This document shows positions 36,477 to 46,374 of a stretch of 63,473 bases of DNA, piece by piece. The notes under the pieces were generated by a model. The model did no database searches. It was not told the DNA's origin and saw nothing but the letters and a program-made list of their open reading frames with translations. The stretch is from contig NZ_JALFLA010000056.1 in the NCBI RefSeq assembly GCF_022775115.1, positions 1-63,473 on the forward strand, in the 5' to 3' direction. The DNA comes from Agathobaculum sp. (lineage in GTDB: Bacteria > Bacillota > Clostridia > Oscillospirales > Butyricicoccaceae). Position 1 is the first letter of the stretch. Every line of letters starts with the position of its first letter. The translations under genes were made by a program, and so were the position numbers.

Positions 36477-36842
36477 TCAGCTCTTGGACTTGGGCTTGGC
36501 AAGCAGGGCGAACAGGCAGCCGAACACGATGGCCGCCGCAATGCCGCCCGCCGCGCCAGTCACGCCGCCGGTGAACGCGCCGAGCAGCCCCTTTTCGGCC
36601 ACCGCCTTGGCCACGCCCTTGGACAGCGAGTAGCCAAAGCCCAAAAGCGGCACGGTCGCGCCCGCGCCCGCGTAGTCGACAAGCGGTTGGTACACGCCGA
36701 TGCCCTGTAGGATCACGCCCAGCACGACCAGACTGACCAGAATGCGCGCAGGGGTCAGCTTGGTTTTGTCGATAAACACCTGACATACCGCGCAGATCGC
36801 GCCGCCCACCCAAAAGGCGTTGATATAGTCCATCCAGTTCAT
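36477..36842 (-). CDS. spoVAE: stage V sporulation protein AE
   Basis: A 121-residue small membrane protein with three to four helices and the family sequence NAFWVGGAICAVCQVFIDKTKLTPARILV, VPLLGFGYSLSKG. It is part of the SpoVA channel that moves Ca-DPA into the forespore. ATG overlaps the spoVAD stop (ATGA). Its upstream cistron spoVAD is split by the 8-kb element, so in the vegetative arrangement spoVAE is cut off from the spoVAC promoter. Confidence 0.95.
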   Translation of the reverse strand: MNWMDYINAFWVGGAICAVCQVFIDKTKLTPARILVSLVVLGVILQGIGVYQPLVDYAGAGATVPLLGFGYSLSKGVAKAVAEKGLLGAFTGGVTGAAGGIAAAIVFGCLFALLAKPKSKS

Positions 36843-37228
36843 GTGCCGCTCCTTTCGATCACGACCGCGTGGCAAATGCCCGCGATGGGTTGTCCCTGCT
36901 GCACCGAGGTGGGGCTCATCATCGCGCCCGTGCCTGCGAAGACCAGCCGCCGGATGCGCCCGGCCTGCATATCGCGCAGCAGCGGGCCGCACAGCACGGC
37001 CGCTGAGCAGCCGCAGCCCGACGCGCCCGCGTGCGCGTCCTGCTCGTCGCCGAACAGCAGGCTGCCGCAGTCCGAGTACACCGGCGAAAGGTCGATCTTG
37101 TCCTCGCGCAGCAGCGTCAGCAGCAGATCGGCGCCGACGCGGCCGAGGTCGCCGGTGACGATGCAGTCAAAATCCGACGGCTGCGCGCCCAAATCGCGCA
37201 GCAGCGCGCTAATGGTGTCGTAGGCGGC
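36839..37228 (-). CDS. spoVAD: spoVAD, 3' part (residues 210-338), separated from its 5' part by an 8-kb element
   Basis: 129 codons reading AAYDTISALLRDLG then FDCIVTGDLGRVGADLL, SDCGSLLFGDEQDAHAGASGCGCSAAVLCG and GTGAMMSPTSVQQGQPIAGICHAVVIE, the complete C-terminal half of SpoVAD (thiolase-fold, DPA-binding). It has no start or ribosome site of its own at the junction; an internal ATG at 37192 would give only a fragment. Joined to 45868-45242 it gives a 338-residue protein, the usual SpoVAD length. No stop or frameshift is present, arguing for selection on the joined product. Confidence 0.95.
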   Translation of the reverse strand, partial: AAYDTISALLRDLGAQPSDFDCIVTGDLGRVGADLLLTLLREDKIDLSPVYSDCGSLLFGDEQDAHAGASGCGCSAAVLCGPLLRDMQAGRIRRLVFAGTGAMMSPTSVQQGQPIAGICHAVVIERSGT

Positions 37229-37256
37229 GGGGGATGATGTGATTTTAGGGCAATAC
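37228..37256 (-). other. recombination junction (spoVAD 3' side) and element arm
   Basis: Plus-strand CGGG core at 37228-37231, four spacer bases, then a 21-base arm at 37236-37256 that is an imperfect inverted copy (14 of 21) of 45218-45238 at the other end. In the excised circle the two arms would face each other with a CC/GG dinucleotide at the exact centre, as expected for a serine-recombinase attP. Confidence 0.75.
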
Positions 37257-37267
37257 CGTTCTGCCGC

Positions 37268-38932
37268 TCACGCGGACTGGGTATGACCCGCGATATACGC
37301 CTTGGCTGCGGCGTAGGCGTCCGCGAACTTGAAGCGGATGGTGATGCCGCCGCCCTCGTGGACAAGGATCATGTCGATCAGCTCGACCACGACCTCTCTC
37401 GTCAGCGTTTGCAGGTTGCGGTGCTTGACAAACTGCGTCAGAAAGCAGTTGCTCTCGCCTATGCCGCCCTGTGCGGCGGCAAGCTGGCTGTCGAGCGCCT
37501 TGAGCTGCCCGTCAAGCTGCCCCAGCTTTTGCGTAAAGCGCGCCTTCAGCCGGTGATACTCCTCGCGGGAGATATCGCCTGCCTTCCAGTCGGGATACAG
37601 GTCGAGCATCATGCGCTCCTGCCGCGCGCGCTCGCGCGTCAGCCGCTCCCGTTCGGCAGTCAGCCGCGCGGCAGCGCGGTTGTTGACGCCGCTGCGCTCG
37701 ATCTCTGCGATCAGCGCGTCCATCTCGACGGCCAGCGCGATCTGCTGGCGCAGCGTTTCAAGCACGGCCTGCTCCAAGTGGTCGCTGCGGATGGTATGCT
37801 TGGTGCATGCGCCGCTGTGCTGCTTTTTGAAGGTCGAGCATATATAATAATCATAGTTCCCATACGGCTGGGAGATCTGCTTGCGGTGCATGGCCTTGCC
37901 GCAGTCGGCGCAGCGGATAAAGCCGGAAAACAGATATACCCTGCCGCGCTGCGGGGCGGTGCGGGTGTCCCGTGCGAGCAGGGTCTGCGCCTGCCGGAAC
38001 AGCGCGGGCGGTATGATGGCCTCGTGGGTCGCCTCGACCGCGATCCAGTCCGCCTCGGGCACGGCCTCGCTGACGTGCAGCTTGTGGCTTTTGATGCGGT
38101 TTTTGCCCTGTACCATCGTGCCGGTGTACAGCCGGTTTTTGAGGATACGGCGCACCGAGCTGTCCGGCCAAAGGCCGTCGAGCTTGTCCGAGGCGGGATG
38201 GCGGTAGTTCATACCCTGCGCCCGCTTGTAGGCCGAGGGATTGGGCACGCCCGCCGCGTTGAGCCGCTTGGCAATGCCGAGGATGCTCATACCGCCGACA
38301 AACCACTCAAAAATATCGCGCACGACCGCGGCCGCAGGCTCGTCGACCAGCAGACGGCTGTGGTCGTCCGGGTCTTTGCGGTAGCCGTAGCTGGCAAACG
38401 AGCCGATGAACTTGCCCTGCCGCCGCTTGAGGTCGAGCGAGGCGCGCACCTTGTTGGAGATGTCCCGGGCGTACTCGTCATTGAGAATGTTGCGGAACGG
38501 CACGATCAGGCTGTGCATCGACTGGGGATCAAGATGGCTGTCCACACGGTCGTTGACCGAGATGAAGCGCACGCCGAGCAGCGGAAAAACACGCTCCAAA
38601 TACTCGCCCACACCGACGTAATTGCGCCCAAAGCGGGACAAATCCTTGACGATCACGCAATCGACCGCGCCCGCACGCAGGTCGGCCAGCATCTGCCGGA
38701 AGGCGGGGCGGTCAAAGTCGGTGCCGGTGCAGCCGTCGTCCGTATAGAGCCGGGGCGCGGTCATATCGGTCTGCGCGGCGGTAAATTCGGCCAGCAGCTC
38801 GCGCTGGCTGATAACGCTGTCGCTCTCGTCGCGGTCGCCGTCCTCGCGGGACAGACGGACGTAAAGTGCGGGGTGCCACAGCCGTATCGTGGGAGCGGAT
38901 GTGGCTTGGTCGTATTTACTTTTTCTTGCCAT
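37268..38932 (-). CDS. large serine recombinase (TnpX/SpoIVCA-like), candidate excisase of the spoVAD element
   Basis: A 554-residue large serine recombinase. The resolvase domain (about 20-170) has the nucleophile Ser in YVRLSRED and KDLSRFGRNYVGVGEYL. Then come the recombinase domain (about 195-300), a zinc ribbon (CADCGK...CSTF...C, about 355-395) and a C-terminal coiled coil with LTAERERLTRERARQERMM. ATG at 38932 follows GAGGAGG. Its stop is 40 bases from the spoVAD junction, the position typical of integrases acting on that site. A sigma-A-like promoter lies upstream. Confidence 0.95.
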   Translation of the reverse strand: MARKSKYDQATSAPTIRLWHPALYVRLSREDGDRDESDSVISQRELLAEFTAAQTDMTAPRLYTDDGCTGTDFDRPAFRQMLADLRAGAVDCVIVKDLSRFGRNYVGVGEYLERVFPLLGVRFISVNDRVDSHLDPQSMHSLIVPFRNILNDEYARDISNKVRASLDLKRRQGKFIGSFASYGYRKDPDDHSRLLVDEPAAAVVRDIFEWFVGGMSILGIAKRLNAAGVPNPSAYKRAQGMNYRHPASDKLDGLWPDSSVRRILKNRLYTGTMVQGKNRIKSHKLHVSEAVPEADWIAVEATHEAIIPPALFRQAQTLLARDTRTAPQRGRVYLFSGFIRCADCGKAMHRKQISQPYGNYDYYICSTFKKQHSGACTKHTIRSDHLEQAVLETLRQQIALAVEMDALIAEIERSGVNNRAAARLTAERERLTRERARQERMMLDLYPDWKAGDISREEYHRLKARFTQKLGQLDGQLKALDSQLAAAQGGIGESNCFLTQFVKHRNLQTLTREVVVELIDMILVHEGGGITIRFKFADAYAAAKAYIAGHTQSA

Positions 38933-38956
38933 TTTGTGTGCCTCCTCAAAAAACAG

Positions 38957-39014
38957 GCGGCACGCCGATGACTGTGTTTGTACCTTGATTGTACCACAGC
39001 CGCCGGTGTGCCGC
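38957..39014 (-). promoter_or_regulatory. recombinase upstream region: promoter inside a long imperfect palindrome
   Basis: Minus-strand TTGCGG (39016-39011), 17 bases, TACAAT (38993-38988). The region is an inverted repeat: 38957-38967 pairs with 39004-39014 (10 of 11) with a nested TGTG.TAC/GTA..ACACA stem. The downstream arm is followed by CTGTTTTTT just before the ribosome site, so it could also act as an attenuator for transcripts coming from the small upstream gene. Confidence 0.55.
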
Positions 39015-39042
39015 AAGCGATGCGCGAGGGCGGTTAAATTTG

Positions 39043-39252
39043 TCAGAGACGGCTGCACAGGCCGGTTAAACAGGCTTGCAGGCTGGGTGCGCCGTCATCG
39101 AACAGCACCTGCACCGTGGTTTCACCCACACGGAAGCGGTAGGGGTCGCCTACGGCGGCCGCGAACAGGCGCAGCCGCTCGTCGACCGGCAGGGTGGGGT
39201 CGATGCGGGTGGAGCGGATGTCGGGAAGCGGGCAGTAGGGTGTAGGCTTCAT
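39043..39252 (-). CDS. small conserved protein (69 aa), candidate recombination directionality factor
   Basis: A 69-residue protein (MKPTPYCPLPDIRSTRIDPT..., ...GDPYRFRVGETTVQVLFDDG...) with a beta-rich C-terminal half. AAAGGAGG precedes ATG. It is encoded 110 bases upstream of the recombinase on the same strand. Size and position fit a recombination directionality factor, as shown for the C. difficile skin element where a small adjacent protein is needed for excision. Its promoter resembles sigma-G (39276-39306), which would confine it to the forespore. The function is inferred, not recognised by motif. Confidence 0.6.
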   Translation of the reverse strand: MKPTPYCPLPDIRSTRIDPTLPVDERLRLFAAAVGDPYRFRVGETTVQVLFDDGAPSLQACLTGLCSRL

Positions 39253-39275
39253 GAAAGCTGCCTCCTTTTCAGCTA

Positions 39276-39306
39276 TACTATGCGCGCAAGACGGTCTGCT
39301 TATGCG
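39276..39306 (-). promoter_or_regulatory. sigma-G-like promoter of the candidate directionality factor
   Basis: On the minus strand: CGCATA (39306-39301), 18-base spacer, CATAGTA (39282-39276). The B. subtilis sigma-G consensus is TGMATA, 17-18 bases, CATACTA, so this matches 5/6 and 6/7. Predicted start about 17 bases before the ATG. A weaker sigma-E reading of the same sequence is possible. Confidence 0.55.
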
Positions 39307-39330
39307 GTTTTGCCGCGCGGCAAAAGAAAA

Positions 39331-39362
39331 AAGCCGCTCCTTGCTTCCAAGGAACGGCTTTG
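39331..39362 (-). terminator. terminator of the cyclophilin/GDPD-like pair
   Basis: Stem AAGCCGTTCCTTGG-type (39331-39362, one mismatch) followed by TTTTTTC on the minus strand, 17 bases after the GDPD-like stop. Confidence 0.8.
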
Positions 39363-39379
39363 CAGGGGGCGGCTTGGTA

Positions 39380-40117
39380 TCAATACCGCATCAGCGGGAT
39401 AGGGTGCGGTTCGCTCTCGCCTGCGGGCAGCAGCATGGCGGCGATATCCGGCCGCTGGGTCTCGATGAAGTTGACGCCGCTGTGGATCAGCCCGGCGAGC
39501 GTGCGCTCGCTGCCCGTCGGCAGGCTCATGGTGAACAGGCCGGCGCGGCGGCAGGCCGTGATCAGCTTGGGGGTCAGGTCGCCCGCGGCGGCGCGCAGGC
39601 CGAACAGCCCGGTCGTTTGCGCGGCGCGCACGAGCGCGTCAATGTTATCGGGCAGAGCGGGCAGCTCGCCCATGATGTGCAGGTCGGGGTTGGCAACCGC
39701 GATGCGCGCCGCCTCAACCAGCCCAAGGCCGACAAAGATGGTATTGTCCAGATAGTTCGCGTGGCGCAGCGTCATGCGCAGCTGGGGCAGCAGCGTCTGG
39801 TTGTGCACCGTGATGGCGATCTTGGCGTGGCATGCGCGCGCAAGGTCGATGGCCTGTCCGGCCGGGACAAGCTGCGGCGCTGTCTGATGCAGCTCGGCGT
39901 AAGTATAGTCGGAGATGTTCATGCGCACCCCGTCCGCCGAAACGCAGTATCCGTCCGACGAGAGCACCGCGATGCCGTCCGCCGTCATATCGACCGACAA
40001 ACAGCAGCCCTTCGCGCCCTCCTCGTTGCCGGCAAGGATGGACTCCAGCCCATCCCGTTCGGTATCCATGCAGCCGACCGCGGACAGGACGAAGATATCC
40101 TTATTGGTGTAGTACAA
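39380..40117 (-). CDS. GDPD-fold (glycerophosphodiesterase-like) protein, probably catalytically dead
   Basis: A 245-residue protein with TTG start behind AAGGGGACGG. The order of segments copies glycerophosphodiester phosphodiesterases: a SVDMTADGIAVLSSDG segment where active enzymes have EIDV...PVVFHD, then ISDYTYAEL, AKIAITVHN where LxIEIK is expected, and a closing GVNFIETQRPDIAAMLL. The N-terminal catalytic HRG, the HD pair and the catalytic Glu are missing, so a non-enzymatic or altered role is likely. It lies 17 bases downstream of the cyclophilin gene (same operon), inside the spoVAD element. Confidence 0.6.
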   Translation of the reverse strand: MYYTNKDIFVLSAVGCMDTERDGLESILAGNEEGAKGCCLSVDMTADGIAVLSSDGYCVSADGVRMNISDYTYAELHQTAPQLVPAGQAIDLARACHAKIAITVHNQTLLPQLRMTLRHANYLDNTIFVGLGLVEAARIAVANPDLHIMGELPALPDNIDALVRAAQTTGLFGLRAAAGDLTPKLITACRRAGLFTMSLPTGSERTLAGLIHSGVNFIETQRPDIAAMLLPAGESEPHPIPLMRY

Positions 40118-40134
40118 TACCGTCCCCTTCTTTC

Positions 40135-40653
40135 TTACAGGGTCTCAGGCGGCTCGTATTCCACACCCTGCGTATCGACTGTTACGCGCTTCATCCGCTG
40201 GGTCTCGCGCGGGCGGTCGTGCCAGTCGCGCTTGGTGCTGACGATCGCGTCAACCACATCCATGCCCTCGGTCACCATGCCGAAGGAGGCATACTCGCCG
40301 TCCAGATGCGGCGAATCCTCGACCATAATGAAAAACTGGCTGCCGGCCGAATCGGGCGCCATCGTGCGCGCCATCGAAAGCACGCCGCGGCTGTGAATGA
40401 GGTCGTTCCGGAAGCCGTTGGCGGTGAACTCCCCGCGGATCTCATAGCCGGGGCCGCCCGTGCCCGTGCCGTCCGGGTCGCCGCCCTGTATCATAAAGCC
40501 CGGGATGACGCGGTGGAAGATCGTGCCGTCATAAAAGCCCTTTTGCGCAAGCGCAATAAAATTGCGCACGGTGTTGGGCGCTACCTCAGGGTATAATTCG
40601 GCACGGATCACGCCGCCGTTTTCCATTTCGATGGTGATGACCGGATTGCTCAT
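40135..40653 (-). CDS. cyclophilin-type peptidyl-prolyl isomerase
   Basis: A 172-residue cyclophilin. Core motifs: FHRVIPGFMIQGGDPDGTGTGGPGYEI, GVLSMARTMAPDSAGSQFFI and HLDGEYASFGMVTEGMDV. No signal peptide, so cytoplasmic. It catalyses cis-trans isomerisation of prolyl bonds. GGAG precedes ATG. First gene of a two-gene unit on the spoVAD element. Confidence 0.95.
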   Translation of the reverse strand: MSNPVITIEMENGGVIRAELYPEVAPNTVRNFIALAQKGFYDGTIFHRVIPGFMIQGGDPDGTGTGGPGYEIRGEFTANGFRNDLIHSRGVLSMARTMAPDSAGSQFFIMVEDSPHLDGEYASFGMVTEGMDVVDAIVSTKRDWHDRPRETQRMKRVTVDTQGVEYEPPETL

Positions 40654-40732
40654 CGTTTTTTCACTCCATTATCATAATTCCCGCAATGCACCGGCGGATA
40701 GTAAAGGCAGCGCCGCGGCATTGAGCCGGGGC

Positions 40733-40830
40733 GGCTTGCGTGGAAATTTTCTGTTCTGATAAGGCACGGCGCGCGGCCAAATCAGGGCACAAAATTTCCG
40801 CAATCCGCCGGGGAAAAACATACGCGGCGC
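40733..40830. repeat. diverged copy of the MITE-like repeat
   Basis: The block GGCGGCTTGCGTGGAAATTT...CTGATAAGGCAC aligns with the interior of the element at 12173-12335. The right side (AAAATTTCCGCAATCCGCCG) is its inverted counterpart, so the segment is a degenerate palindromic repeat. The terminal repeats are too eroded to define ends exactly. Confidence 0.5.
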
Positions 40831-40937
40831 TGACTTACTACTATTGTAGCAAATATTTGCGCCAACGGCAAGTCATGTTACCATAATGAAACAATGCCGC
40901 CGCGCCGCCGGGCGGGGGAGGTTGTGCAGCTGTCAAT

Positions 40938-41004
40938 AAATCCACATTATGCACAAAAGTTTCCACAGGATGGCTGGGGATAACCTTGTGTACAAAGTGG
41001 ATAA
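40938..41004. other. cluster of DnaA-box-like 9-mers inside the spoVAD element
   Basis: Within 67 bases: TTATGCACA (40947-40955, perfect TTATNCACA), TGGGGATAA (40975-40983) and AGTGGATAA (40996-41004), each one mismatch from TGTGGATAA, plus two-mismatch copies AAATCCACA (40938) and GTTTCCACA (40959). The density resembles a DnaA-binding cluster. No replication gene is nearby. The rest of 40654-41163 holds the MITE-like repeat and the presumed divergent promoters of the cyclophilin and TepA genes. Confidence 0.5.
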
Positions 41005-41163
41005 CTTCGGGTATTCCCCGGCGGCAGAGCGCGGTGATACCTGTATCTGCCCTTTACGCGCTGTAATATCCGATACAGAAACAGGAAAAATCCCGTATGA
41101 AAGCGGCCGCCGCGCGGCACACTGTTGATACATCCACCTATGTATCAAGAGAGGAGCTTCGCA

Positions 41164-41859
41164 TTGGAGGATATCCAGTCCATCAAAGCGCCGGAGGAAA
41201 ACAGCATCGCGGAAACCGGCTCGATTACCGCCAAGACCGCGCGCGGCACGGTGCACTGTATCACCATCGTCGGCCAGATCGAGGGGCACATGGAGCTGCC
41301 GGCGCAGAACAAAACAACCAAATACGAGCATCTCATCCCGCAGATCACCGCAGTCGAGCAATCCGAGGAGATCGATGGTATGCTGGTGCTGCTCAACACG
41401 GTCGGCGGTGATGTTGAGGCCGGTCTGGCCATCGCCGAGCTGATCGCGGGCATGACAAAGCCGACCGTCTCGCTCGTCCTCGGGGGCGGGCACTCGATCG
41501 GCGTGCCGCTGGCCGTTGCCGCGAAACAGAGCTTTATCGCAGCCTCAGCCGCCATGACCATCCATCCCGTGCGCATGAACGGCACGATCATCGCCGTGCC
41601 GCAGGCCTTTGAATACCTCGTGCGTATTCAAGAGCGCATCGTCGATTTTATCACGGCGCACTCGCACATCACAGCCGAGCGGCTGCAGGCGCTCATGCGC
41701 GAGACCGGGCAGCTGACCGCCGATGTGGGCACGGTCATCTCCGGTCGGCAGGCGGCTGAGCTGGGGCTGATCGGTCAGGTCGGCACGCTGTCCGACGCGC
41801 TGGACGCGCTGTATGAGATGATCGCGGCGGCGCGCGGCAAGGCGGCTGCCGCGCCGTGA
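41164..41859 (+). CDS. tepA: TepA/YmfB-like ClpP-family serine protease
   Basis: A 231-residue ClpP-fold protein. The TTG at 41164 is preferred because GAGGAG is seven bases upstream; an ATG further up has no ribosome site. The active-site pattern is present: [14 protein letters not shown], then Ser in [15 protein letters not shown] and His in [11 protein letters not shown]. subtilis TepA (YmfB) is an ATP-independent relative of ClpP near spoIIIE reported in protein export and degradation of spore SASPs. Here it is cargo on the spoVAD element, with its own terminator, and may be sporulation-linked. Confidence 0.88.
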
Positions 41860-41876
41860 GTGTCCGCGGACAGAAC

Positions 41877-41917
41877 AAAGGCCTCGCCGTATGAGTTGCT
41901 CATCGACGAGGCCTTTT
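41877..41917 (+). terminator. terminator of the TepA-like gene
   Basis: Stem AAAGGCCTCG/CGAGGCCTTT with a 20-base loop and TTTT, 18 bases after the stop. Confidence 0.75.
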
Positions 41918-42899
41918 ATGCCGTCTGTCCCATGGGAATCGTTCCCTTTCCTTGGTGTGTATGCCGCTGCCTTCCATTCCTTTGCGCCATAAGCGAACGA
42001 GTGTGTCATTTTATCCTGCATTCGCGGGGCTGCCCGGCTGCGGTTCTTGATTTTTTCATCGAACCTTTGGATGCTGCTTGCAACCTCACGGATTGATGTT
42101 CGCACCATCGTCATGTTCTCAGCTTTTCACCGAACGCTTTGTACCGTCCGGTCACCTGCAACACGCGCAAACTCTATGTTCCTATGCATGACGCGCCCTT
42201 TACACGGCGGATAACTGTTCGATTCGAATCCGCACCGCCCGGCATCCGGTGTGGTCAAGCCTTGATATCATCGCGGCCTGCCGCCTTGGCTCTGCCTTGT
42301 GCGCACCATACTCATCAGTATGCCCATCGGCCAACGGGTGCGCGTTTGTGCGGCGTATGCGGTCATCGCCCGGTTGTGTTTTTCGCCGGCACGTCGTGTA
42401 TGCCTGATATCCCTGTCCTGTGCGAACCTTGCTGTCCTGCTGCCTCGATCCGCCTTGCCTTCCGGTTTGTTTTACGGACGTTTTTGATTGCTGAGGATAG
42501 CTTCCTCCAAGGCTTCCGTTCCCACGCTTTACAAGCCGATCGCGCTTTTCAGGCAGTTCGTCTGGGGGATGTGAAACTCGCTTTTTCCGATAGCCCTCAC
42601 CTTAGCTTTATCCTGGCGAACGCACCGCGGCGAGCCCCGCGAATGAACAGGATATTTCTTCTGTTACCATTGGACTCACCCCTTTCTCGAGCTTTCCGGC
42701 GGTTCTGCCGCCGCCCGTTCAGATGAGAGACTGGGTTGCCGCCGCGCCGCAGGGTCTGTGTCCTGCGCTTGCGGTGTTTGCCCTTCTCTTTTCTGTGCCT
42801 TTATCATATCATTAACTTTGCACAAGGTCAAGCGTTATTTATTATTTTTATATGGGCATTCTGCACCAAAAAAACGAATCGCTTTCATCGTTTTCCCCC
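41918..42899. other. about 1 kb without a recognisable gene
   Basis: No intact gene found on either strand. On the minus strand there is an open, polar, Arg/Gln/Ser-rich frame from about 42600 to a stop at 42200 without a good start codon, and a second short frame (SIQRFDEKIKNRSRAAPRMQ) around 42020-42110. Both could be debris of an older coding region. A possible mini-frame with GGGGTGA before ATG lies near 42675 (minus). No tRNA, CRISPR or clear hairpin terminator was seen. Confidence 0.4.
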
Positions 42900-42928
42900 T
42901 TTTCACAGGACGCAGAATTTGGTATAAT
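42900..42928 (+). promoter_or_regulatory. promoter of the alcohol dehydrogenase/asparaginase pair
   Basis: TTTTCA (42900-42905), 17 bases, TATAAT (42923-42928). Confidence 0.65.
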
Positions 42929-43000
42929 GGTTACATCTGGCGTGTTATGTCTAAAAGGGGGTCGGGTGACTCCCTTTTTTGGAAAAGGAGGACGATTGAT

Positions 43001-44158
43001 ATGCAGAACTTCAGCTTTTATATGCCCACGCGCCTGTTTTTCGGCGCGGGCGCGGTCGCAAGGCTGTCCAAGGCGCACCTGCCTGAAGGCAAGGGGCTTA
43101 TCATTACGGGCGGCTCATCGACCACGCGCTTCGGCTATGTGGCCAAGGTGGCCGACGCGCTCGCGCAGGGCGGGCATGAGATCATCGTATATGACAAGGT
43201 GCAGCCCAACCCGACCATCGAGGGCGTGCGCGCGTGCGCGGCCATCTGCCGTGAGCAGGGCATCGCGTTTGTCGTCGGTCTGGGCGGCGGCTCGTCGATC
43301 GACACGGCCAAGGCGGTCGCCATCATGGCCACCAACGAGGGAGACTGGTGGGATTACGTCCACGGCGGCACGGGTGGCGGCAAGCGCATCCCGCACGACG
43401 GCCTGCCCATCGTCGCCATACCGACCACGGCGGGCACGGGTACCGAGGCCGATCCCTTCACAGTCATCACCAACGGGGAGGAGAAGATCGGCGGCGGCGG
43501 GGAGAAGTGCTTTCCGGCCATCTCGATCGTCGACCCCGATTTTATGCTGACCGTGCCGCCGCACCTGACCGCCTATCAGGGTTTTGACGCACTGTTTCAC
43601 GCCTGCGAGGGCTATGTCGCCAAGACCGGCAACCCGATGAGCGATATGTTCGCGCTGCGCGCGATCGAGCTGATCGGCCGCGCGCTGCCCACTGCTGTGC
43701 GGGAGGGGGATAACAAGGATGCGCGCGCCGAGGTGGCGCTGGCCAACACGCTGGCCGGCTTTGTCGAAACGCTGTCCAGCTGCACGGGCGAGCACGCCAT
43801 TGAGCACGCGCTGAGCGCGCTCCATCCCGCGCTGCCGCACGGCGCGGGTCTTATCCTGCTCTCTGAGGCGTATTGGAAGCGCTTTTTCGCAGCCGCAGGC
43901 GAGCGGATGACCGCCATGGCGCGCGCGCTTGGTGATGTGTCCGCCGACCGGCCGGAGGCCTTTATCGCCGCGCTCGCCCGGCTCAAGCAAAGCTGCGGCG
44001 TGGATGGGCTGCGCCTTGCCGACTACGGCTTCCGGCCCGAGGACGCGGACTGGATCGCGGACAACGCCATGCAGACCATGGGCGGCCTGTTTAAGGTCGA
44101 CCCCGCGCCGCTCTCGCGTGAGGATATCGTCCAAATCGTACAGGAAAGCTGCCGCTGA
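43001..44158 (+). CDS. iron-containing alcohol dehydrogenase
   Basis: A 385-residue type III (Fe) alcohol dehydrogenase, closest in pattern to NAD(P)H-dependent butanol dehydrogenases. NAD-binding GGGSSIDTAKA (about 93-103) and IPTTAGTGTEADPF are present; Fe ligands are the Asp/His set in GFDALFHACEG and TGEHAIEHALS. AAGGAGG precedes ATG at 43001. It interconverts aldehydes and alcohols, fitting butyrate/butanol metabolism. It is cargo on the spoVAD element, 31 bases upstream of the asparaginase gene. Confidence 0.92.
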   Translation: MQNFSFYMPTRLFFGAGAVARLSKAHLPEGKGLIITGGSSTTRFGYVAKVADALAQGGHEIIVYDKVQPNPTIEGVRACAAICREQGIAFVVGLGGGSSIDTAKAVAIMATNEGDWWDYVHGGTGGGKRIPHDGLPIVAIPTTAGTGTEADPFTVITNGEEKIGGGGEKCFPAISIVDPDFMLTVPPHLTAYQGFDALFHACEGYVAKTGNPMSDMFALRAIELIGRALPTAVREGDNKDARAEVALANTLAGFVETLSSCTGEHAIEHALSALHPALPHGAGLILLSEAYWKRFFAAAGERMTAMARALGDVSADRPEAFIAALARLKQSCGVDGLRLADYGFRPEDADWIADNAMQTMGGLFKVDPAPLSREDIVQIVQESCR

Positions 44159-44189
44159 GCGCGCTTTTCCAGTCATAAGGAGGCATTCG

Positions 44190-45098
44190 ATGAAACACGT
44201 CTTACTGCTGGCCACCGGAGGTACGATCGCCAGCCGCCAAACCGGCCATGGGCTGGCGCCCTCGCTCACCGGCGAGGAGTTGCTGGACTTTCTGCCCGCG
44301 CTGGGCCGTATCTGCAAGGTCGTGGTCGAAAACCCGATGAGCATCGACTCGACCGATATGTGCGCCGAGGACCGCATGAAGCTGGCCACCATCATCTGGC
44401 AGAATTATGACCGCTACGACGGCTTTGTCATCGCGCACGGTACGGATACGCTCAGTTACACGGCCGCGCTGCTCTATCATGTGCTGCGCAACCTGAACAA
44501 GCCGGTCATCATCACCGGTGCGCTGCACCCGGTGGGCGAGCCGGACTCGGACGCCGAGCGCAACCTGCTCGACGCCTTCCGCGTCATCGAGGCCGGTTAC
44601 GTCGGCGTGGCTGCCGTGCTGCACGGGCAGATCATCCGCGGCAATCACGTCGCCAAGGTGCATACGACCGATGTCGACGCTTTCCGCTCGGTCGGCGCGC
44701 CGCTGGCCGGCACGGTGGACGACAGCGGCCGCGTTTGGCTCAAGATCGTGCCGCTGCTGGGCGGCGAGCCGCGGTTTGTCGAGCATGTCGATCCCCGCAT
44801 CGTGCTGCTCAAGCTGGTGCCCGACCTTGACCCCTCTATTCTGGACTTTCTCAGCCGCTATCCCAAGGTCATCATCGAGGGCTTCGGCTCGGGCGGCATT
44901 CCGCAGCGGCTGGAAAAGGTCGTGCAAAAGCTCATCCAGAGCGGCACTAAGGTCTATCTGACCAGCCAGTGCATCGAGGGCGAGACCGATCTGGGCAGGT
45001 ACGAGGTCGGCCGCCGGGCCGAGGCCATGGGCGCGGTTTCGCTCGGCCACCGCACGACCGAGGACGCGCTGGCCGCGATCATGTGCGGGGAGATATAG
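44190..45098 (+). CDS. L-asparaginase (type I/cytoplasmic-like)
   Basis: A 302-residue asparaginase hydrolysing Asn to Asp and ammonia. Both catalytic Thr sites are visible: LLATGGTIASR (Thr near residue 12) and AHGTDTLSYTAALL (Thr near 90, with Asp). No signal peptide. AAGGAGG precedes ATG. Last gene before the right end of the spoVAD element; an asparagine synthetase (asnB) is encoded 4.6 kb downstream outside the element. Confidence 0.93.
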   Translation: MKHVLLLATGGTIASRQTGHGLAPSLTGEELLDFLPALGRICKVVVENPMSIDSTDMCAEDRMKLATIIWQNYDRYDGFVIAHGTDTLSYTAALLYHVLRNLNKPVIITGALHPVGEPDSDAERNLLDAFRVIEAGYVGVAAVLHGQIIRGNHVAKVHTTDVDAFRSVGAPLAGTVDDSGRVWLKIVPLLGGEPRFVEHVDPRIVLLKLVPDLDPSILDFLSRYPKVIIEGFGSGGIPQRLEKVVQKLIQSGTKVYLTSQCIEGETDLGRYEVGRRAEAMGAVSLGHRTTEDALAAIMCGEI

Positions 45099-45142
45099 GG
45101 CGGCGGCGCGCATCACGATATCCAATTATATAATGTATAAGG

Positions 45143-45182
45143 AAAAAGCGATCCCTTGCAGCGCGCAGGGCGATCGCTTTTT
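45143..45182 (+). terminator. terminator at the right end of the spoVAD element
   Basis: Stem AAAAAGCGATC/GATCGCTTTTT, loop about 18 bases with an internal CCT/AGG pairing. Confidence 0.85.
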
Positions 45183-45217
45183 GCTTTCAAACACAGTATT
45201 CCGGCGTGCCGGGGGAT

Positions 45218-45244
45218 GTATGGGTCTATATTGACCTCTTCGGG
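45218..45244 (-). other. recombination junction (spoVAD 5' side) and element arm
   Basis: Arm at 45218-45238 (imperfect inverted copy of 37236-37256), two spacer bases, then the CGGG core at 45241-45244, where spoVAD codon 209 (Pro) ends. Past the core the reading frame runs on into non-SpoVAD sequence for 42 codons. Confidence 0.75.
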
Positions 45245-45868
45245 TGCCATCGCCGCCCCCATGTTGTTAGCGTCGGTCACGCCCAGCTCGACCATGCGCC
45301 CAAACAGCGCATGGGTGACGCGGATGCGCCCCGTGCCCTTGGCGGAGAGCACGGCCGCGCCTGCGGCGGTCGCCGTCCACTGGGCGGTGGGGGTGCGCTG
45401 CCCGCCATAGGCCAGTGGAAAGCGGTACTGCCGCTCGGCTGAGCAGAAGTGCGACGAGGCTGCCGCAAGCAGGTGGCGCGCCGCGCCGCCCTCGACCAGA
45501 CACGCGCCGAGCGCCAGTCCCTGCGCCATGGTAGAGCACGCGCCGTACTGGCCGAGATAGGGTACACCCGAATCGACCGAGGCCAAAAACGAGCTGATGC
45601 ATTGGTTGAGTAGGTCGCCCGCGAGGATGACATCCAGCTCGTCCTTTTGCAAATTGCCCTTTTTCAGCGCCGCGTCAATTGCAGTCTGCTGCAGGCGGCT
45701 TTCGGCTAGCTCCCACGATTTTTCGCCCATGCGGTCGTTTTCGGCCACATAGTCAAACAGCGCGCCGAGCGGGCCCGCTCCTTCCTTTTGACCGACGGCC
45801 GATGCGTGGGCGAGCAGGTAGGGCTGTGCGGCAAAGCGCAGCGTGCGTTGTCCAATGCGTTCGATCAT
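45242..45868 (-). CDS. spoVAD: spoVAD, 5' part (residues 1-209)
   Basis: 209 codons of SpoVAD: PYLLAHASAVGQKEGAGPLG, SWELAESRLQ, ILAGDLLNQC, YGACSTMAQGLALGACLVEGG and LGVTDANNMGAAMAP. The last motif is followed in other SpoVAD proteins by AAxDTI, which is exactly how the other half (37228 downward) begins. In the present arrangement translation continues 42 codons into the element and stops at 45113, giving a truncated 251-residue protein without the DPA-site half. ATG overlaps the spoVAC stop (ATGA). Confidence 0.95.
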
Positions 45869-46317
45869 GCCGCGCCGCCTCCTCCCAGCAGAACGAGTAT
45901 CAGGCCGTAGAGCACGCTGGCCGAGATGCCGTAAACCAGCACCGGCCCCGCGATGACGAACAGCTTCGCGCCCAGACCGAGCACCAGCCCCTCGCTTTTG
46001 AACTCCATCGCGGGCGAGACGATCGCGTTGGCAAAGCCGGTGATCGGCACGATCGTGCCCGCGCCCGCGTGCTTGGCCATCTTGTCATACAGGTGCAGGC
46101 AGGTCAGCAGCGCGCCGAGAAAGACCATCGTGATCGCGGTCGCGGCGGCGGCGTCCGTCGTCTCCAGCCCGCGGCCTTGATAAAAATTGCTCACCGCCTC
46201 GCCCACCGTGCAGATAGCCCCACCGAACAGGAATGCCATCAGGCAGTCCCGCCACAGGGGCGAGTTCGGGCTTTTCTGCGCCAGCAGCTGCTGATAGCGC
46301 TGTTTATCCAGTTGCAT
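45865..46317 (-). CDS. spoVAC: stage V sporulation protein AC
   Basis: A 150-residue membrane protein with about four helices: CLMAFLFGGAICTVGEAVSNFYQ, FLGALLTCLHLYDKMAKHAGAGTIVPITGFANAIVSPAMEFKSEGLVLGLG. SpoVAC is the mechanosensitive channel-like component of the DPA channel. ATG at 46317 follows AGGGGAG. First gene of the operon, with a sigma-G-like promoter 28 bases upstream. Confidence 0.96.
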   Translation of the reverse strand: MQLDKQRYQQLLAQKSPNSPLWRDCLMAFLFGGAICTVGEAVSNFYQGRGLETTDAAAATAITMVFLGALLTCLHLYDKMAKHAGAGTIVPITGFANAIVSPAMEFKSEGLVLGLGAKLFVIAGPVLVYGISASVLYGLILVLLGGGGAA

Positions 46318-46344: not shown

Positions 46345-46374
46345 TAGCATGTGCGGCGCGTGCGCCATTATCCA
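46345..46374 (-). promoter_or_regulatory. sigma-G-like promoter of spoVACDE
   Basis: On the minus strand: TGGATA (46374-46369), 17-base spacer, CATGCTA (46351-46345), close to the sigma-G consensus TGMATA / CATACTA. This fits the established sigma-G (forespore) control of spoVA in B. subtilis. Confidence 0.65.

Follow-up and report, generated by a model that had tools for sequence, protein, structure and literature searches.

We report that an element of about 8 kb interrupts spoVAD, a gene with a predicted role in loading spores with their protective compound, in a gut Agathobaculum strain (contig NZ_JALFLA010000056.1, whose full 63,473 nucleotides we call the window), and that this split is real, recurrent and site-specific, being made by a dedicated clade of large serine recombinases. 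In the forespore, the recombinase would likely excise the 8-kb stretch, which holds the recombinase gene and that of a DUF6870 protein, and thereby restore a working spoVAD. This reading draws on the cut itself, the arms of its attachment sites (attL and attR), a recombinase clade linked to one codon, constraint on both gene halves and promoter matches, all of them read from sequence.

spoVAD is split at one proline codon

On the minus strand of the window, the 5' part of spoVAD (45868-45242) encodes 209 amino acids up to a proline codon and the 3' part (37228-36839) a further 129 before the stop, 338 in sum. As the initial annotation had proposed, translation gives stop-free, in-phase halves, the first ending in NNMGAAMAP and the second beginning AAYDTISALL, and these match complementary stretches of the Pfam SpoVAD profile (1-206 and 204-329). 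The cut falls on one proline codon within the conserved MAPAA motif, and MAPAAYDT is read straight across the junction in four intact members of the genus. The same annotation placed spoVAC and spoVAE intact on the outer sides and the recombinase 40 bases from one junction, which holds: spoVAC (45865-46317, minus strand) and spoVAE of the SpoVAEB type (36477-36842, minus strand) each match their Pfam family (PF03862 for both; starts MQLDKQ and MNWMDY picked by eye) and each overlap spoVAD by ATGA, and the recombinase stop lies 40 bases from the 3' part (37268 versus 37228). A search for a second spoVAD in the strain's own assembly (G000, also W; 2.19 Mb, 95.7% complete, 88 contigs) returned the two halves and no other copy.

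Uninterrupted spoVAD, sought in relatives, is present at full length in 18 of 25 genomes of the genus, and the gene is cut at the proline codon in three: G000, the isolate A. butyriciproducens DSM 100391 (G054) and Ca. A. stercoravium (G077). The halves are stop-free in all three, and none has a full-length second copy. Since the cut codon and the matching arms described below are shared with G054 and G077, and intact members read through the site, the split is not a matter of chance. Ca. A. pullistercoris (G069), one of the 18, additionally holds a 3' half with a recombinase. Elsewhere in the genus, G063 carries spoVAD as two overlapping frames (C1:171547-172535), probably through a frameshift, G076 has a C-terminal fragment, and G032 (97% complete) gave no spoVAD match. 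In G011 and G024, the halves stop where their contigs end, at a distance from the site. In G067, contig C58 ends exactly at the proline codon, and the end of C68 overlaps it by 106 bases (104 identical) and continues into an intact gene; this could be an assembly fork between two states but was left out, as G067 has no recombinase match at E 1e-150 and no attL arm.

Attachment sites and the joined products

On the minus strand, attL (45216-45260) comprises the core CC at 45243-45244 and the element arm GAAGAGGTCAATATAGACCCATACAT, and attR (37220-37251) comprises the element arm GCCCTAAAATCACATCATCC and the core CC at 37230-37231. The CC common to the two sites is that of the spoVAD proline codon, and the predicted removed circle, counted core to core, is 8,013 bp long. 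The arms are conserved among split genomes, as CC-[C/G]GAAGAnGTnAATwTAGACCCATACAT for attL and CCTAAAA...TCwTCC-CC-C for attR. When up to three mismatches were allowed across the 25 genus genomes, the attL arm occurred without mismatch in G000, G054 (twice) and G077, that is, in three of the 25; the reversed pattern gave five matches, one apiece in five other genus genomes. The two G054 copies lie on different contigs (C26:246-268 and C30:246-268) at equal distance from the end, as if the assembly forked inside the element.

The joined circle site forms a dyad around CC that pairs 17 of 30 positions in W and 18 in both G054 and G077, levels reached by 0 of 2,000 shuffles. Dyad att arms surround the same CC in all 12 paired genomes (shuffle p 0.0175 in G372 and at most 0.001 in the other 11), and in each of them the joined spoVAD frame is open across the codon.

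In the nine paired genomes outside Agathobaculum, which are related by descent, the joined circle site would also bring together TTGACA, 17 bases and a TATAAT-like hexamer (TATAAT in three, TATTAT in two, and TATATT, TAAAAT, TATACT or TAAACT), scoring 10-12 of 12 as a promoter against 7-9 for attL or attR alone. This promoter would first read into TnpV in G099, and in G424 into the receptor gene, with DUF6870 and the recombinase behind it. On the attL side of G091 and G090, the nearest genes point the other way. A promoter formed on the circle was reportedly described for Tn4451-type elements by Lyras and Rood in 2000.

A recombinase clade tied to the spoVAD codon

The window recombinase (37268-38932, minus strand; 554 aa, most likely starting at MARKSKY) carries resolvase, recombinase and zinc-ribbon domains, a TnpX-like make-up as judged from domains alone. 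Those beside the 3' half in G054, G077 and G069 are 75-77% identical to it, and among 87 genomes of the family these three, all Agathobaculum, and the window are the only ones with a match at E 1e-150. Serine recombinases are numerous in Agathobaculum genomes (G061, G054, G005 and others), with as many as 20 matches at E 1e-20 in a single genome.

A scan of named genomes for the recombinase kept 80 loci, in 11 of which the fetched DNA holds a spoVAD half ending or starting at residues 207-210. In a quick tree of 71 of these loci and the window (nine were left out, and L110 was labelled by genome rather than by contig), the 13 labelled recombinases fall inside one branch of 15 (SH-aLRT 92), whose remaining two members are G099 and G100. 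Members of the clade are 40-77% identical to the window recombinase, yet are found at the same spoVAD codon, which is cut in this way in several families. Searching 12 such genomes in full gave both halves in six (including G054 and G077), a 5' half only in two, two 5' halves in one and a full-length gene together with a 3' half in three. In G087, one of these three, the 3' half is 89% identical to the Agathobaculum protein, against 48% for the full-length copy, so this half is probably on a foreign contig. Lachnoclostridium sp. MSJ-17 (G099) likewise has both halves.

We then ran a profile built from 12 clade recombinases over 394 genomes of the order, scoring up to three candidates per genome, such that misses are possible. 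It matched 16 genomes at E 1e-190. All ten scoring at least 796 bits have a cut spoVAD (both halves in eight, the 3' half alone in G167 and G419), and all six scoring at most 682 bits have spoVAD at full length or nearly so. Four of the ten high scorers (G000, G054, G175 and G295) had contributed their own recombinase to the profile; the other six were new. The clade is thus tied to the spoVAD proline codon, and the window element is one member of it. A second complete element, in G424 from another family, has both junctions on one 151-kb contig, 4.7 kb apart, and holds three genes that run the same way as spoVAD, namely those for a chemotaxis receptor, a DUF6870-like protein (41% identity to the one in the window) and the recombinase; spoVAE comes after them. 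In two rumen or gut relatives, frames that resemble sugar transferase and polysaccharide genes lie on the element side of attL (L123:11796-21575 and L119:13198-16102).

Both halves are under constraint

The ratio of nonsynonymous to synonymous differences (pN/pS, NG86) is much the same for split and intact genes. For 5' halves, the medians are 0.253 between intact genomes (153 pairs), 0.265 between split and intact (54) and 0.252 between split genomes (3); for 3' halves they are 0.184 (153), 0.187 (72) and 0.188 (6). As these pairs span time before the split, the ratios reveal no relaxation and do not date the split. The recombinase itself has a pN/pS of 0.13-0.33 over ten pairs. Among W, G054 and G077, pS is 0.46-0.54 for the recombinase, 0.50-0.56 for the 5' halves and 0.32-0.38 for the 3' halves; a single recent donor for all three genomes is not supported, the recombinase lying near the 5' halves, though above the 3' halves. 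These three genomes lie dispersed across the SpoVAD tree, which takes three changes, two of them forced, no better than shuffles. We read this as suggesting an old association with either repeated clean loss or repeated gain.

Promoters that may place the element under forespore control

Between the recombinase and the rest of the element lies a gene for a DUF6870 protein (39043-39252, minus strand; PF21757, E 2.3e-15), a candidate recombination directionality factor. DUF6870 precedes the recombinase by Pfam match in the window, L151, L109 and L108, and similar frames do so in G054, G077, G424, G441, G372 and G419. Forespore-type promoters were sought with the consensus GHATR-N18-CATNHTA. A predicted one, GCATA-N18-CATAGTA (39276-39305, minus strand), stands 53 bases before the DUF6870 start codon with one mismatch; it was spotted by eye, after which 14 upstream regions were scanned. 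A match 53-57 bases before DUF6870 is present in four of five Agathobaculum modules, without mismatch in G077, the G069 contig and L105, which are related rather than independent, and with one in the window. G094 and L123 have one-mismatch matches at other positions. The 126,946 nt of both window strands hold no exact match and 20 one-mismatch matches.

The recombinase itself is preceded by a predicted vegetative-type promoter, TTGCGG-N17-TACAAT (38988-39016, minus strand), whose hexamers and spacing are the same in five of five Agathobaculum modules. Before spoVAC we find a predicted forespore-type promoter, GGATA-N17-CATGCTA (46345-46373, minus strand; no mismatches to a pattern loosened post hoc), and a related site occurs in six of six genomes with 0-1 mismatch, the pattern having been loosened after these sites were read. 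In C. difficile, spoVAC, spoVAD and spoVAE belong to the sigma-G regulon of the forespore (excerpt of PMC3789822). The arrangement of a predicted vegetative promoter for the recombinase and a forespore-type promoter for its candidate partner is also the layout of the C. difficile skin element, where the recombinase is constitutive and the directionality factor developmentally controlled (CD1231 and CD1234; excerpt of PMC5025042).

sigG is cut in the same genus

We also describe a second case, that of sigG. A sigma-G model, run on 18 genomes, gave only one match above its curated cut-off, and in Agathobaculum (G000, G061, G048, G077, G070 and G054) sigG is broken into two or three pieces next to other serine recombinases, the cuts falling at VPM|IIGEIRR and EIHISQ|AQVSRLEK. 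At the first site, G000, G061, G048 and G077 gave both pieces and G070 the 3' piece. Beyond Agathobaculum, this site also bounds a 3' piece of G095 (C142:6219-6731) and a 5' piece of G099 (C62:6146-6442). In G000 and G061, the 3' piece has a serine recombinase immediately in front of it. The second site is cut in G000, G077 and G054, and in G000 and G077 the tail continues a recombinase frame. The G000 pieces are at C40:3353-3637, C44:19144-19602 and C17:4847-4924, and the first-site pieces of G061 are about 112 kb apart (C2:296939-297223 and 408910-409398). All pieces are stop-free, with a pN/pS of 0.05-0.23.

Interior of the window element

Only DUF6870 and the recombinase look foreign among the interior genes. 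The host genes at 39380-45098 sit together at another place in four relatives: G048, where they are 73 kb from spoVAD, G061, where the distance is about 140 kb, G070 and G077. This block encodes a weakly GDPD-like protein (39380-40117, minus strand; PF03009 at E 0.064, below cut-off), a cyclophilin (40135-40653, minus strand), a ClpP-like protease (41125-41859, plus strand), an iron-containing alcohol dehydrogenase (42938-44158, plus strand; start approximate) and an asparaginase (44175-45098, plus strand), the last being matched once each in 23 of the 25 genus genomes.

Pfam and NCBIfam scans gave no phage structural or replication gene as the best match of the main element frames. TnpV adjoins attL in G093, G095, G099, G441 and G372, and none was seen among the scanned frames of the window. 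A phage origin was considered and rejected: scans of viral contigs for the recombinase gave six loci of 38-42% identity on contigs of 4-6 kb, and the Agathobaculum circle-site pattern had no match on viral contigs. The pattern from outside the genus matched two of them; we judged this to be chance, since the two share the DNA in which the site lies and the stretches fetched from them showed no recognisable recombinase.

A proposed model of forespore excision and its alternatives

We infer the following course. The vegetative promoter would supply recombinase, which by itself would hold the element in place (attP x attB). DUF6870 would then be switched on, along with spoVA, by a sigma factor of the forespore (F or G) and would turn the recombinase to attL x attR, so that spoVAD would be rejoined as MAP-AAYD and the circle would remain in the spore. 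More speculatively, the recombinase may reinsert the circle at outgrowth. Only tentatively do we extend this to a spore chromosome assembled from pieces in each spore generation. Across Agathobaculum and several related families, a forespore sigma factor would trigger the splicing of spoVAD by serine recombinases, and in this genus also that of sigG from up to three pieces. The dormant spore would keep the circles until outgrowth, when they would be put back, in many relatives with the help of a promoter present only on the circle. Such a reversible, inherited cycle of DNA assembly would differ from the described rearrangements, which take place in a mother cell that is doomed.

Several observations weigh against forespore excision. 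No excised state was observed, and sporulation by Agathobaculum was not established here. The interior consists mostly of relocated host DNA and holds the sole asparaginase found in the assembly, so that excision without reintegration should be costly; such an interior favors reintegration or rare excision, or else speaks against excision in the forespore of this strain. No forespore-type match precedes DUF6870 in G054, and nine upstream regions of other groups have none at that position. DUF6870 gave no fold match (model pLDDT 79; best PDB match E 3.3), and no DUF6870 frame was seen directly before the clade recombinase in L119, L123, L159, G144 and G167; its absence beside some clade recombinases led us to weight a mobile element slightly up and the piecewise spore chromosome down. 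The circle promoter is found in none of the three Agathobaculum genomes (window, G054 and G077), G100 has an intact spoVAD plus a clade recombinase near a contig end, and three genomes combine full-length spoVAD with a 3' half. The scatter in the SpoVAD tree means that the splits may be younger than the constraint suggests.

The foremost alternative, which we regard as somewhat unlikely, is an integrative-mobilizable-type element for which the conserved spoVAD codon is a fixed address and which excises at random, without developmental control, such that only cells or lineages that have lost it sporulate. The TnpV genes next to attL in several relatives and the circle-formed promoter, as reported for Tn4451, are in its favor, as is the patchy presence among genomes, and constraint would persist if the gene were intact most of the time. 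The forespore-type promoter before DUF6870 in four of five modules, the lack of a full-length second spoVAD in W, G054 and G077 and the cutting of sigG in the same genus speak against it. That sporulation is being lost and spoVAD is the broken relic of an insertion is improbable: host genes do lie between the halves, and sigG is in pieces as distant as those of G061, but the spoVAD halves of the three split genomes are stop-free with pN/pS as in intact genes, and the sigG pieces are likewise constrained. It is more improbable still that each half yields a protein of its own and the two assemble with no joining of the DNA; both halves are open and constrained, but the cut lies inside the MAPAA motif, and the window 3' half has no ATG or ribosome site at the junction, its first listed start being a TTG 12 codons in. 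An assembly error is scarcely credible, for even if the window is one of 88 contigs and relatives carry the interior of its element at other places, the arms at both junctions recur in the isolate G054 and in G077, and another family has a complete element on a 151-kb contig.

A recombinase clade tied to a forespore gene, and known from several families and one cultured strain, would break the rule that excision takes place in the mother cell and leaves the spore its element, and it predicts either reintegration at outgrowth or something new. The work also provides a set of recombinases with one shared attachment codon and, in DUF6870, a candidate family of directionality factors. It carries a warning for sporulation predictors, by which a split spoVAD or sigG may be counted as missing.

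Comparison with known systems

Elements known to interrupt sporulation genes include skin (sigK; C. difficile and B. subtilis), SPbeta (spsM), vfbin (spoVFB), vrin (spoVR), gin (gerE) and yin (yabG). In line with the initial annotation, in which spoVAD is not known as a described host gene, no paper on a split spoVAD was found among the matches listed from the open PMC literature; 'spoVA' does not occur in PMC5595907, PMC10747680, PMC4191935, PMC6957869 and PMC5025042, nor 'spoV' in the main text of PMC10083194. The host genes of known elements are almost all mother-cell genes (PMC6957869), yabG being SigK-regulated (PMC4191935, PMC6957869, PMC10747680), and the reason given there for persistence is that excision occurs in the mother cell while the spore keeps the element (PMC6957869, PMC4191935). 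With spoVAD placed in the forespore by analogy with C. difficile, excision would change the genome that is passed on, which the element has to leave.

The initial annotation called the insertion skin-like, and this stands in part. As in skin-type elements, a sporulation gene is split by DNA with its own serine recombinase, the insertion is site-specific and tied to that adjacent recombinase, and a precise join restores the frame. Unlike them, the window element has as its target a forespore gene, by analogy with C. difficile (excerpt of PMC3789822), an interior made mostly of relocated host DNA, DUF6870 as candidate partner and no observed excision. It is reminiscent of gin in gerE of B. cereus ATCC10987, which also has serine recombinases and no phage genes, but gin is 28.6 kb long, has three recombinases and targets a mother-cell regulator (excerpt of PMC5595907). 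With Tn4451-type elements (TnpX, TnpV) it shares a large serine recombinase, a two-base core and, in relatives, TnpV (excerpt of PMC3158075); it differs in its single fixed codon as target, in the lack of TnpV among the scanned window frames and in having no circle promoter in Agathobaculum. Phage regulatory switches, or active lysogeny (named in the excerpt of PMC10747680), differ in that no phage genes were recognised in the window element, but the reversible excision and reintegration that define the comparison would be needed here too.

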